Assembly (NCBI GenBank): GCA_017880825.1
Contig: JADGRN010000023.1
Location: forward strand, 1-13,285
Length of the DNA: 13,285 nt
DNA from: Methylophilaceae bacterium
GTDB taxonomy: Bacteria; Pseudomonadota; Gammaproteobacteria; Burkholderiales; Methylophilaceae
Direction of reading: 5' to 3'
The translations under genes were made by a program, and so were the position numbers. This document shows, piece after piece, positions 9,228 through 12,211 of this stretch (the stretch's first letter is position 1; every line of letters begins with the position of its first letter). The notes beneath the pieces are model-generated. The model saw nothing but the letters and a program-made list of their open reading frames with translations. It searched no databases and was not told the origin of the DNA.

Positions 9228-10529
9228 TCATAGCGCCAGCGTCAAGCGCACTTCCAACCCGCCTTGGGGCCGATTGATCAATTCAAGCTGGCCCTTGTGC
9301 AGGCGCGCAATGCGGTCGGCAATCGCCAAACCCAGTCCACTGCCGCCTTCATTGCCACGCGCCGTATTCATGCGCTCGAATGGGCGCAGCAAGCGTGCCA
9401 TCTGCGCAACTGGAATACCCGGGCCATTATCCAGCACGCTTACCACCATGGAAGTGGCATTGAGGCTGGTTTGCACCTCCACCTTCCCACCACCGTAAGT
9501 AAATGCGTTGTCCAACAGATTGCCGAGCAGGCGTTGCATGGCGAGTGGCCTGAGCGCCACCAGATGGGTGGGCGATAGCTTCAACCGCACATGGCGTCCG
9601 ATCCTGGCAAGGCGCTCCGACAGTGATTTCAATAGCTCGTTGAGGTCGACCATTTGTGTCGGTTCACCTTCCACCCCGCGTATGAAGTCGAGAAACTGGT
9701 GAATGATGTTATCCATGTCGGCAATGTCCTGCACCATGCCTGCTTTCAGACAATCAGCTTGCTGTTCAGGCAGCATCTCAACGGCTAACCGTAACCGGGC
9801 CAGTGGTGTGCGCAAGTCATGGGAGACGCCTGCCAGCAGCAAGGTACGCTCGGTATCCAGTCTGGCCAACGCTTCAGACATCTGGTTAAACGTGCGACTG
9901 ACTTCGCGCAGTTCTTCAGCGCCTGATACGGGCAATTTTTGCGGTGTTTCTCCATGGCGTAATTTGTCTGCTGCTGCAGCCAGCAACCTCAAGGGCTGAT
10001 TGATGCGGGCGGCAATCACATAACCGCCTACCAGCGATAGCAATGCCACCAACCCAACCCAACCCAGCCACTGCCAGGGGAAAGGGCGTTCGACCTGAAT
10101 GCGCGGAATCACTACCCAGAAATCGTCCTGATCAATTGAAAAGCTCACCCATAAACCTGGCAAGCCGAGATGATTGACGGTAACCAGCGTATCTTCGCCT
10201 AACCTTTGGCGAATGATGGCCGCTATCAGACGGATATAAGTGTCCTTGGGTAGAGGCTCAACTTCTTCCATCAAATCCACCGCGTATACGCGTACGCCTT
10301 CACGCCCGGAAAAGTCAGAGAGCAGTGCGATGCGCCGATCTTCCGCCGCTGCCAACAACGCAGCACGCGTCAGGTTAACAATGCTGACCGCCTGAAATGC
10401 GGCAGCTGCAGCACGCGGTTCACGTTCAAAATAGTCAAAGATACGCAGTGCAGAAAACTGGCCAACCGCCAGCAGCAGAGCGACCAGCAGCATGATGCGA
10501 GCGAGTAGTGTGCGTGGCTGAAAACGCAT
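9228..10529 (-). CDS. envZ: EnvZ-like membrane sensor histidine kinase
   Basis: A 433-residue inner-membrane sensor kinase. Two membrane segments (about 10-30 and 153-174) flank a periplasmic domain of about 120 residues. A HAMP linker (about 175-228) follows, then the dimerisation and phosphoacceptor box AGVSHDLRTPLARLRLAVEM with H237. The ATP-binding domain has the N box LLGNLLDNAF (N337, N341), the G1 box DNGPGI (367-372) and the G2 box GGSGLGLAI (395-403). The H box is nearly the same as in E. coli EnvZ, which senses osmolarity and acid and phosphorylates or dephosphorylates OmpR. The ATG shares one base with the regulator's stop (TAATG), so the pair is coupled. The name rests on the partner and the H box; the input signal here is unknown. 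Its stop is 5 bp from the cysG stop, with no room for a separate terminator. Confidence 0.9.
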   Translation of the reverse strand: MRFQPRTLLARIMLLVALLLAVGQFSALRIFDYFEREPRAAAAAFQAVSIVNLTRAALLAAAEDRRIALLSDFSGREGVRVYAVDLMEEVEPLPKDTYIRLIAAIIRQRLGEDTLVTVNHLGLPGLWVSFSIDQDDFWVVIPRIQVERPFPWQWLGWVGLVALLSLVGGYVIAARINQPLRLLAAAADKLRHGETPQKLPVSGAEELREVSRTFNQMSEALARLDTERTLLLAGVSHDLRTPLARLRLAVEMLPEQQADCLKAGMVQDIADMDNIIHQFLDFIRGVEGEPTQMVDLNELLKSLSERLARIGRHVRLKLSPTHLVALRPLAMQRLLGNLLDNAFTYGGGKVEVQTSLNATSMVVSVLDNGPGIPVAQMARLLRPFERMNTARGNEGGSGLGLAIADRIARLHKGQLELINRPQGGLEVRLTLAL

Positions 10530-11254
10530 TATTTCGATGCCTCACCATCCGGCACAAACACATAGCCAAAGCCCCATACGGTCTGAATAAAACGCGGATT
10601 TGCAGGGTCGTCTTCAATCAGCCTGCGTAAACGTGATACTTGCACGTCCACGCTGCGGTCATAAACTTCCAGATCGCGTCCTCGTGCCAGTTGCATCAGC
10701 TTGTCGCGCGACAATGGCTGGCGTGCGTGATCAACCAATACTTTGAGTAAGGCGAATTCTCCACTGGTAATGCTCACTAGTTCACCATTTTTGCTGAGAC
10801 TGCGCGTCGACAGATCAAACATAAACTCACCAAAACTGATTTTCTCGCCAGACTCGACTGGAGCCCCCGGCACGACACTTTTCTGCCTCCTCAAAACGGC
10901 ATTGACACGGGCTAATAATTCACGCGGATTGAATGGCTTGTGCAGGTAATCATCCGCCCCCATCTCCAGCCCGATAATACGGTCAACCTCATCACCTCGT
11001 GCGGTCAGCATGACAATCGGTATATTGCTACCAGCGGCACGCAACCTGCGGCATACGGCAAGTCCATCTTCATCCGGCATCATCAAGTCCAGTACCAGCA
11101 GGTCAACATGTTCTCGTGCCAGCCACTTATCCATGTCCTCACTGTTGGCCACCGCTTTTACCACAAAGCCTTGCTCGCTGAAATAACGTTGCATCAGTTC
11201 CCGCATGCGCTGATCATCGTCCACCATCAGAATTTTTTTGATGTTTTCTTGCAT
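10529..11254 (-). CDS. ompR: OmpR-like response regulator
   Basis: A 241-residue response regulator, the DNA-binding partner of the downstream kinase. The receiver domain shows the acidic pocket DDD (near residue 12), phosphoacceptor D56 (LLVLDLMMPDEDG), the T of VMLTARG and the K of YLHKPFNPRELLARV. A winged-helix domain covers the last ~100 residues, with TSGEFALLKVLVDH, PLSRDKLMQLARGRDLEVYD, RSVDVQVSRLRRLIEDDP and FIQTVWGFGYVFVPDG. Identity to E. coli OmpR is obvious by eye, including the MQEN start. I therefore start at the ATG at 11254; in-frame ATG (11263) and TTG (11281) codons lie upstream and no start has a clear ribosome site. Four TnACA half-sites at 11328-11375 suggest autoregulation. 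Confidence 0.92.
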   Translation of the reverse strand: MQENIKKILMVDDDQRMRELMQRYFSEQGFVVKAVANSEDMDKWLAREHVDLLVLDLMMPDEDGLAVCRRLRAAGSNIPIVMLTARGDEVDRIIGLEMGADDYLHKPFNPRELLARVNAVLRRQKSVVPGAPVESGEKISFGEFMFDLSTRSLSKNGELVSITSGEFALLKVLVDHARQPLSRDKLMQLARGRDLEVYDRSVDVQVSRLRRLIEDDPANPRFIQTVWGFGYVFVPDGEASK

Positions 11255-11327
11255 AGATGACATTCTGTGCGGATTGCTCAAGTATTGAAAGGGTTGCGTA
11301 GAAACCTTATGTTAATTAAGGCGTACT

Positions 11328-11376
11328 GTTACATTCAGTTACAAATTAATCAATTCGAGTCACATTCTGCTTACAT
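11328..11376. promoter_or_regulatory. Candidate OmpR-family binding array (four phased TnACA half-sites)
   Basis: GTTACATTCA and GTTACAAATT are back-to-back 10 bp direct repeats at 11328-11347. GTCACATTCT (from 11359) and CTTACATCC (from 11370) form a second pair. The TnACA cores begin at 11329, 11339, 11360 and 11371, spacings of 10, 21 and 11 bp, so all face roughly the same side of the helix. Tandem half-sites of this kind are how OmpR-family dimers bind, and TTACA resembles E. coli OmpR half-sites. The array sits 74-122 bp upstream of the ompR ATG and just in front of the possible small RNA at 11406. This is inferred from pattern and position. Confidence 0.5.
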
Positions 11377-11393
11377 CCATCCCGCATTGTTGC

Positions 11394-11399
11394 AATACT
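11394..11399 (+). promoter_or_regulatory. Possible activator-dependent -10 element (plus strand)
   Basis: AATACT preceded by TGC gives an extended -10 style TGnAATACT (four of six plus TG). The -35 position (11371-11376) is a poor match but lies at the end of the TnACA array, as expected for a promoter needing an OmpR-type activator. Transcription would start near 11406. Confidence 0.25.
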
Positions 11400-11405
11400 T
11401 GCCAA

Positions 11406-11481
11406 GCCAGCTTGACTCATCTCCTTGTTAGCATGCAAGCAGGGGTCCGTAGCCAGTTGCTACGGATCCCTTCCTGTTTTT
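11406..11481 (+). ncRNA. Candidate small RNA divergent from ompR
   Basis: A strong plus-strand terminator (11441-11481) has no open reading frame in front of it. The only gene upstream, ompR, is transcribed the other way. A possible -10 at 11394 and the TnACA array before it would give a transcript of about 75 nt: some 35 nt of unpaired 5' sequence and then the terminator hairpin. This is the usual layout of a Hfq-type small RNA, and OmpR is known to activate small RNAs such as OmrA/OmrB and MicF in enterics. The 5' end is an estimate and no known RNA family is recognised. Confidence 0.35.
11441..11481 (+). terminator. Strong intrinsic terminator without an upstream gene
   Basis: AGGGGTCCGTAGC (11441-11453) pairs with GCTACGGATCCCT (11459-11471) over 13 bp with one G-U pair and a 5 nt loop. 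TTCCTGTTTTT follows, ending at 11481. The minus strand has no T-run after the stem, so it should act only on plus-strand transcription. It may end the candidate small RNA, or insulate the EF-hand gene from antisense read-through. Confidence 0.65.
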
Positions 11482-11500
11482 GACAATTTAAAAAATGTCA
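11481..11500. repeat. AT-centred dyad after the terminator
   Basis: TGACAATTTAAAAAATGTCA is an imperfect 20 bp palindrome (8 of 10 positions match) with perfect TGACA/TGTCA ends. It could be an operator in front of the EF-hand gene. The left arm also reads TTGACA with the preceding T, but there is no -10 at 16-18 nt from it. Confidence 0.3.
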
Positions 11501-11511
11501 TCAAGCAGGGT

Positions 11512-11517
11512 TATAAT
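11512..11517 (+). promoter_or_regulatory. Possible -10 element for the EF-hand gene
   Basis: A perfect TATAAT lies in an AT-rich stretch (11511-11555). The best -35-like sequence, TTTAAA at 11487-11492, is 19 nt away, which is long. TATACT at 11549-11554 is a second possible -10. Either would give a leader of about 100-130 nt containing the 18-codon ORF at 11596. Confidence 0.25.
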
Positions 11518-11595
11518 AATTATTAAAATAAAACAGCAAGATAGTAGATATACTAAGCTTATGCTGCACTGTCTTAAGTTACCCACAGCAAACAA

Positions 11596-11652
11596 ATGAA
11601 GGGCTGTTTAATGAAGCAATTATTGCTCTCGGCTTGGATTTGTATCACCTAA
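11596..11652 (+). CDS. Possible 18-codon upstream ORF (leader peptide)
   Basis: ATG at 11596 encodes MKGCLMKQLLLSAWICIT and stops at TAA 11650-11652, 4 nt before the ATG of the EF-hand gene. An internal ATG (11611, MKQLLLSAWICIT) has AAGGG 7 nt upstream, a better ribosome site than the EF-hand gene itself has. Translation of this short hydrophobic peptide could couple into the following gene. It could also be the remnant of a signal peptide or simply chance, since the ORF is very short. Confidence 0.3.
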   Translation: MKGCLMKQLLLSAWICIT

Positions 11653-11656
11653 GCAC

Positions 11657-12211
11657 ATGATAGCTGTTCGAAACATATGTCTGAACAAGCGGCATGCCAT
11701 GCTGGCACTCTACATGGCTCTTGGTTTGTCACAGCCATTATTTGCCGGTTCTCATGGCAATCAGCACGGAACTGACGATCCCCTTCCCCCAGTTACCGAA
11801 ACAGACTCTCAAGAACCCGTACCACAAGCTTTAGAAGGAAATGTCAGCGCAGAAGAGCGCTTGCGTTTACGCAACGATCTCGAAACTTACTCTCGCTCGG
11901 AAGATCCCGACCACGATCGGATGGAGGCGCAACGTCGCGCCATGCGTGAGCACAGCAAGCAGCGTTTTCAAAGTGCTGACAAGGATAGCGATGGGTCTAT
12001 TTCGCGTGAGGAAGCCTGGGAAAGTATGCCGCAACTTGCGCGCCATTTTGACCAGGTTGACACTAACAGTGATGGCATCATCACTGAGGACGAGATGGAG
12101 GCGGCGCAGGCTCGCATGTTAGAGCGTCAGCGCGCGGCCTCTGCCAAAAACGACGTGCAGGAACCCAAGCGCAAATCCAAAGATACAGCCAACCGTCGCC
12201 GCGCCCTTTAA
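11657..12211 (+). CDS. Secreted EF-hand calcium-binding protein
   Basis: A 184-residue protein with a signal peptide: positively charged n-region (VRNICLNKRH), hydrophobic core LALYMALGLSQPLFA and likely cleavage after A30. A Pro/Glu-rich linker follows. Two canonical EF-hand loops come next, DKDSDGSISREE (D108-E119) and DTNSDGIITEDE (D135-E146), both with acidic residues at positions 1, 5 and 12. A basic tail (KRKSKDTANRRRAL) ends the protein. Calcium binding in the periplasm or outside the cell is expected; no enzymatic domain is visible. The start has no ribosome site; an in-frame ATG at 11699 gives a shorter signal peptide (MLALYMALGLSQPLFA). I do not recognise a named family. It lies downstream of the 11596 mini-ORF and divergent from ompR-envZ. 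Confidence 0.8.
   Translation: MIAVRNICLNKRHAMLALYMALGLSQPLFAGSHGNQHGTDDPLPPVTETDSQEPVPQALEGNVSAEERLRLRNDLETYSRSEDPDHDRMEAQRRAMREHSKQRFQSADKDSDGSISREEAWESMPQLARHFDQVDTNSDGIITEDEMEAAQARMLERQRAASAKNDVQEPKRKSKDTANRRRAL

Follow-up and report, generated by a model that had tools for sequence, protein, structure and literature searches.

The question raised by this locus is whether the DNA divergent from a two-component regulator gene pair in a Methylophilaceae genome encodes a small RNA controlled by that regulator, or whether the RNA predicted there is better explained in another way. We analysed a window of 13,285 nt (the whole stretch of DNA, numbered from its first base), in which a first-pass annotation had placed such an RNA at 11400-11481, divergent from genes that it named ompR-envZ. 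The gene pair is:

10529-11281, minus strand: response regulator gene of the risA/ompR type (Pfam Response_reg and Trans_reg_C), starting at ATG 11254 or TTG 11281
9228-10529, minus strand: risS-type sensor kinase gene (Pfam RisS_PPD, E 5.7e-35; HAMP, HisKA and HATPase_c)

The name risA-risS fits this pair better than ompR-envZ because the sensor carries RisS_PPD, a match to its periplasmic domain, and because GTTACA, found beside the regulator gene, is the RisA consensus in Bordetella. Chromatin immunoprecipitation sequencing (ChIP-seq) of RisA in Bordetella pertussis recovered the GTTACA motif in 391 of 430 peaks (PMC11019879). The best matches to RisA of the window are about 76% identical and derive from other genera of the family. 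No congener of the window was found among the 186 other family genomes in the RisA search, and a search of viral contigs returned no relatives. In a tree of RisA and the following frame (30 loci), the window stands next to genus g15 (support 91/85) and has a long branch (0.61).

Between risA and its divergent neighbour, we identified an operator and two candidates for the -10 element of a promoter, P1:

11328-11376, no strand assigned: conserved operator (the TnACA array), GTTACA-N5-TTACAA-N14-GTCACA-N6-TTACAT, agreeing with 25 of 30 consensus positions
11385-11390, plus strand: -10-like box of P1, CATTGT, 8 nt past the operator, favoured by the family alignment
11391-11399, plus strand: alternative extended -10 of P1, TGC-AATACT, read from the sequence and without support from the family alignment

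What had been described as a TnACA array is in fact a family-wide operator. We compared 110 intergenic regions beside risA, that of the window and those of 109 relatives from other genera. RisA matches at E 1e-80 were obtained from 169 relatives, with 17 of 187 genomes lacking one, and the 109 relatives comprise 29 loci returned and 80 picked for spread over genera. The family consensus is GTTACA-N5-TTACAA-N14-GAAACA-N6-TTACAT (also recorded as GTTACA-N5-TTACAA-N14-GAAACATTCGATTTACAT). It was drawn from these same sequences, so the relatives' scores are partly circular: at least 20 of 30 positions agree in 106 of the 110 regions vs 4 of 110 shuffles, and at least 22 of 30 in 98 regions vs none of 110 shuffles. 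The contrast with shuffles is less affected by this, as is the fixed inner gap: of the 106 regions that score at least 20, 102 have a gap of 14.

Repeated GTTACA-like half-sites thus stand at regular spacing before a -10, as expected for a promoter under RisA/OmpR control. A CAnnnT hexamer occurs 8 bases past the operator in 95 of the 106 regions vs a background of 2% (the four regions scoring below 20 were excluded from this count and from leader folding). The box is mostly CATGAT (47 regions) or CATTAT (17). The CATTGT variant is confined to the window (1 of 106), where P1 thus has a degenerate -10. The possible extended -10 of the first-pass annotation is present as TGC-AATACT, but the family alignment prefers CATTGT. 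With either candidate, transcription would start at about 11397-11407. The operator of fixed spacing and its -10-like box (106 of 110 regions), together with the identity of GTTACA with the RisA consensus, make control of the divergent promoter P1 by RisA well supported at the level of sequence, in agreement with the regulator control first proposed. RisA would bind the operator at 11328-11376 and act on P1, perhaps along with the promoter of risA itself. In B. pertussis, a RisA site lies in the risA promoter, although that study found no evidence that RisA regulates its own gene under the conditions used (PMC11019879).

The gene ahead of P1, and the RNA that we predict between them, are:

11657-12211, plus strand: divergent gene for a small secreted-type EF-hand protein of 184 aa (Pfam EF-hand models; related frames in relatives)
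11397-11481, plus strand: predicted short leader RNA of about 75-85 nt, running from P1 (start expected at 11397-11407) to a terminator

By eye, the EF-hand protein begins like a signal peptide. Its homologues occur in metagenome sources, which contain proteins 85-88% identical (P0002-P0005) that we ascribe to congeners. Its gene begins 280 nt past the array. Using its motif, we located the divergent gene in 41 of the 106 regions, the window included. Many of the placed frames start about 60-100 nt past the operator (in g23, part of g20, L153 of g10 and L116 of g7), so P1 is by origin the promoter of the divergent gene; in the window and another part of g20, the frame starts at least 200 nt past it. 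Because the promoter aims at the divergent gene in those relatives where the gene was located, the predicted RNA is first of all the leader of that gene.

In Burkholderiales, 15 of 16 hand-picked loci encode, divergently from risA, a small protein of secreted type whose C-terminal part carries an [DE]ERR.LR motif (L022 has no frame, and secretion was judged from the look of the start). Comparison of the profile of this protein with that of the EF-hand family gave a probability of 54% (P 1.2e-4, 29 columns), which is suggestive only. The firm gain from this locus is the operator and divergent promoter kept across the Methylophilaceae genera examined, rather than the hairpin. Together they link the RisA-type regulator with a small protein of secreted type, and a neighbour with a similar motif occupies the same place in Burkholderiales. 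The secreted-type protein can therefore be put to the test as a possible conserved output of RisA/RisS outside pathogens.

Inside the 280-nt leader, we identified a hairpin and tail:

11441-11471, plus strand: terminator hairpin of 13 bp with loop CAGTT (from the terminator-like-site scan, folding and shuffles)
11477-11481, plus strand: T5 run of the terminator tail, after TCCTG (read from the sequence)

The 13 bp plus-strand hairpin of the first-pass annotation is clearly present. It reads AGGGGTCCGTAGC-CAGTT-GCTACGGATCCCT, contains 8 G-C pairs and one G-U pair, and has the G+C-rich stem and short loop (5 nt) of a Rho-independent terminator. The stem is the longest among 19 terminator-like sites found by a scan of the whole window, where the number of such sites is at chance (19 observed vs 16.4 expected). 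The stem-plus-tail score for 11396-11545 is 27.9 vs a maximum of 21.6 in dinucleotide shuffles (none of 2000 as high), and the 86 nt at 11400-11485 fold with a z of -2.85, equalled by 1 of 200 shuffles. A T5 run does follow, but the tail is weaker than the term "U-rich" implies: TCCTG comes first and the run begins 6 nt past the stem, giving a moderate tail with an interrupted U tract. It satisfies the scan rule of 5 T in 8, and tail and stem jointly exceed shuffles. A repeat element was ruled out, since the hairpin has a single copy in the genome assembly (1.45 Mb, 76% complete) at up to 3 mismatches.

None of the window's 46 ORFs of at least 80 aa, on either strand, overlaps 11400-11481; as had been noted, no gene runs into the hairpin. 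Within the predicted RNA, the sole short frame with a Shine-Dalgarno-like motif has 8 codons and lies at 11457, and a 16-codon ATG frame at 11433 lacks such a motif (by eye). The interval thus has the lack of coding capacity expected of a stand-alone small RNA. A known RNA family was ruled out, as the window contains no Rfam 15 match above gathering score; for 11260-11700, there were three matches at E 4.5-8.6, far under the gathering scores. A short transcript from P1 ending at the terminator is plausible, and at about 75-85 nt it is close to the roughly 75 nt first proposed. It is the status of this transcript as an independent small RNA that lacks support.

The expectation that stem and U-tail would be conserved in relatives that keep the regulator pair fails across genera. 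In a stem-plus-tail scan of the 150 nt past the promoter (110 regions), the window scores 26.9, L142 scores 20.8 with a hairpin further downstream than that of the window, and the next best is 15.5. None of the 109 relatives, all of other genera, reaches the window's score over the 150 nt scanned. Scores of at least 12 occur in 14 of 110 leaders, where shuffles predict 4.7; this mild excess is spread over various positions and includes the window and three identical Methylophilus hairpins. Relatives' leaders may tend toward weak terminator-like stems, unlike that of the window. A perfect-stem scan of 420 nt found terminator-like stems in 12 of 90 regions including the window, the others all having at most 10 pairs and at most 4 G-C pairs. 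At the DNA level, a search of 61 genomes with the intergenic region and a search of 187 family genomes with 11395-11490 each matched only the window at E 0.001. In the latter, the next best match had E 0.009, and at E up to 10 some match occurred in 141 of 187 genomes. Among the lineages examined, a hairpin of this strength is seen in one only.

Several candidates for a shared RNA or terminator were considered and rejected. Matches that might mark a homologous RNA elsewhere in the family were judged to be chance: the seven loci inspected of nine besides the window (L197-L203, E 0.009-0.055) resemble, by eye, coding DNA or, in the case of L202, the strand opposite a gene start. In g20 (Methylophilus), several leaders have weak hairpins before CTATTTTTTGT, but z values range from -5.0 to +0.6 (16 sequences) and shuffles are often as high, so we do not claim a conserved terminator there. 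Terminators are not enriched over shuffles in the leaders of other families (49 of 61 loci, L006-L066, were scored, namely those with a TTACA site within 330 nt).

The restriction of the hairpin to one lineage, its interrupted tail and the long branch (0.61) would all fit a hairpin that has no role in termination, being either a leader stem that stabilises the mRNA or a product of neutral drift. However, stem and tail together score above 2000 shuffles, and no other terminator-like site in the window has so long a stem. We regard this reading as decidedly unlikely.

With moderate confidence, we favour a promoter under RisA control, most of whose transcripts end at a terminator specific to this lineage and leave a leader RNA. 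The operator, the fixed -10-like box, the terminator-like hairpin and the divergent gene are all established as sequence features. Transcripts from P1 would head toward the EF-hand gene, and most would stop at the intrinsic terminator at 11441-11481, leaving a leader RNA of 75-85 nt. The EF-hand gene would be fed by read-through, by a second promoter, or by both. The candidate for the latter is:

11488-11517, plus strand: candidate second promoter P2, TTAAAA-18-TATAAT, 10 of 12 positions, identified from its consensus match only

The terminator step could have arisen by accident in a single lineage, a possibility raised by the lack of any relative near the window's score and by the long branch of 0.61.

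The position of the terminator within a 280-nt leader raises the alternative that the EF-hand gene has a regulated leader of the attenuator or riboswitch type, in which a signal chooses between stop and read-through. Consistent with this, folds of the growing chain traverse an alternative structure before the right arm of the hairpin is made. That alternative is 15 kcal/mol weaker, however: the leader folds at -29.8 kcal/mol, and at -14.5 kcal/mol if the right arm is blocked. We see no competing antiterminator fold of comparable stability, so termination looks constitutive and not switched. Nor did we find a leader peptide with a Shine-Dalgarno motif ahead of the hairpin, or a riboswitch match in Rfam. 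Across the family, folds of the leaders' first 80 nt are divided on this point. The window has a z of -4.0, and leaders of some other genera also fold better than shuffles (mean z for g3 -4.4, two sequences; g12 -2.2, two; g11 -1.2, six), but g15 (-0.8, five), g20 (-0.6, 22) and g18 (+0.7, three) have little or no excess structure; the means for g23 and g7 are +0.4 (13 sequences) and +0.5 (28). We consider regulated attenuation quite improbable.

Some of these leaders contain structures of their own. The two g3 leaders (L089 and L090, z -4.1 and -4.7) form a long-range stem without a U tail. Five g15 leaders (L085, L097, L098, L100 and L104) have a 5' stem-loop directly past the promoter with paired changes CG/UA and GC/AU, and further on an invariant AAACTTTTA. 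The covariation score of the g15 stem-loop is 0.315 (none of 500 shuffles as high; 197 of 500 for further pair types), for a structure drawn by eye from the same five sequences and with a second helix that pairs only 63% of cells. A leader structure common to g15 and the window was rejected, as joint folding gave 4 pairs at -0.47 kcal/mol.

The layout at 11397-11481 also fits a dedicated, trans-acting small RNA under RisA control, with a 5' mini-hairpin, a CU-rich seed (UCAUCUCCUU), a terminator, and a next gene that has its own promoter. In the folding ensemble, the seed at 11417-11426 is left unpaired (0.80-0.99), which would allow it to bind a ribosome-binding site, and the placement of P2 past the terminator would suit a separate small RNA gene. 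Bordetella has the RisA-bound small RNAs rgtA and vrgX (PMC11019879), and Hfq is encoded in all 34 near-complete related genomes. Against this, the RNA has no other match at E 0.001 in the 187 family genomes and no Rfam family. The complement of the seed, AACAAGGAGATGAGT, recurs at up to 2 mismatches only in itself and in the 3' end of a pilT-looking frame, an unconvincing target from one 15-nt query against a 76% complete genome. Hfq was not found in the window's 76% complete assembly, probably due to the incompleteness of that assembly. A trans-acting RNA separate from the leader is possible but unsupported, and we consider it rather unlikely. The independent small RNA of the first-pass annotation thus gives way to the leader of a divergent gene placed in 41 of 106 regions, with no relative among 109 matching the terminator score and no Rfam family.

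The favoured reading, a leader RNA ended by a terminator, has a counterpart by position in Burkholderia thailandensis, where the RNA BTH_s19 comes from the intergenic region beside ompR/risA and lies in the 5'UTR of the divergently transcribed gene (PMC4035088). It was found by microarray and checked by RACE and northern blot; the RACE products measure 133-223 nt and the full-length form about 300 nt (PMC4035088). This contradicts the earlier statement that no such RNA was known beside ompR-envZ in betaproteobacteria, and its publication removes the claim to novelty as previously put. The likeness, a leader of the gene divergent from risA as in the window and its relatives, is one of position alone, and kinship is not proven. 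BTH_s19 differs in that the available part of the report gives a model of processing or degradation, with some products entering the gene, and describes no single strong terminator. In the area that corresponds to BTH_s19, the divergent leaders of Burkholderia and Paraburkholderia loci L025, L028 and L035 contain hairpins of the CCCGG...CCGGG type with a short T-rich stretch; that of L028 was identified by eye, and those of L025 and L035 are outscored by shuffles.

The enteric RNAs OmrA, OmrB and MicF resemble the window in combining an OmpR-family activator with a short terminated RNA. They are OmpR-controlled, trans-acting and have known targets, and to our knowledge they are not leaders beside ompR. 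The window differs from them in having no Rfam match. The RisA regulon of B. pertussis shares with the window the regulator family, the GTTACA motif, a RisA site at the risA promoter and RisA-linked small RNAs, but rgtA and vrgX are not described as adjoining risA in the available part of the report (PMC11019879). No report on this locus in Methylophilaceae was among the literature matches listed, from a search with most subscription journals outside its scope.

Should the hairpin mark the end of a stable RNA, the locus would illustrate how a small RNA can split off from a leader. A further step would be a recently born, lineage-specific RisA-dependent small RNA, for which a terminator arose in the neighbour's leader and the neighbour gained a promoter downstream. 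We judge this step unlikely; if true, it would catch a small RNA gene at birth from a 5' leader. The downstream promoter P2 is predicted only weakly, since promoter-like sites over the whole window are about as numerous as chance would give (12 vs 11.0 expected), though the interval 10800-12200 contains 5 vs 1.9 expected. An inverted repeat, TGACA-N10-TGTCA at 11481-11500, overlaps the -35 of P2 (by eye) and is a possible repressor site.

Closer to the EF-hand gene, which itself has no clear Shine-Dalgarno, we identified a short frame:

11611-11652, plus strand: short upstream ORF MKQLLLSAWICIT, preceded by 4 nt spacing to the EF-hand ATG at its end and carrying an AAGGG motif

Short ORFs ahead of the divergent gene suggest translational coupling. 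By eye, some genomes of g15, g18 and g11 also have short ORFs, with unrelated peptides, ahead of this gene. In the alignment of g20 (Methylophilus), 16 of 22 loci (L117, L118, L122, L139, L141, L142, L151 and L173-L181) keep a TTGATG-18-TATGTT-like block, with variants, past the first promoter, and this block resembles a second promoter of the divergent gene.
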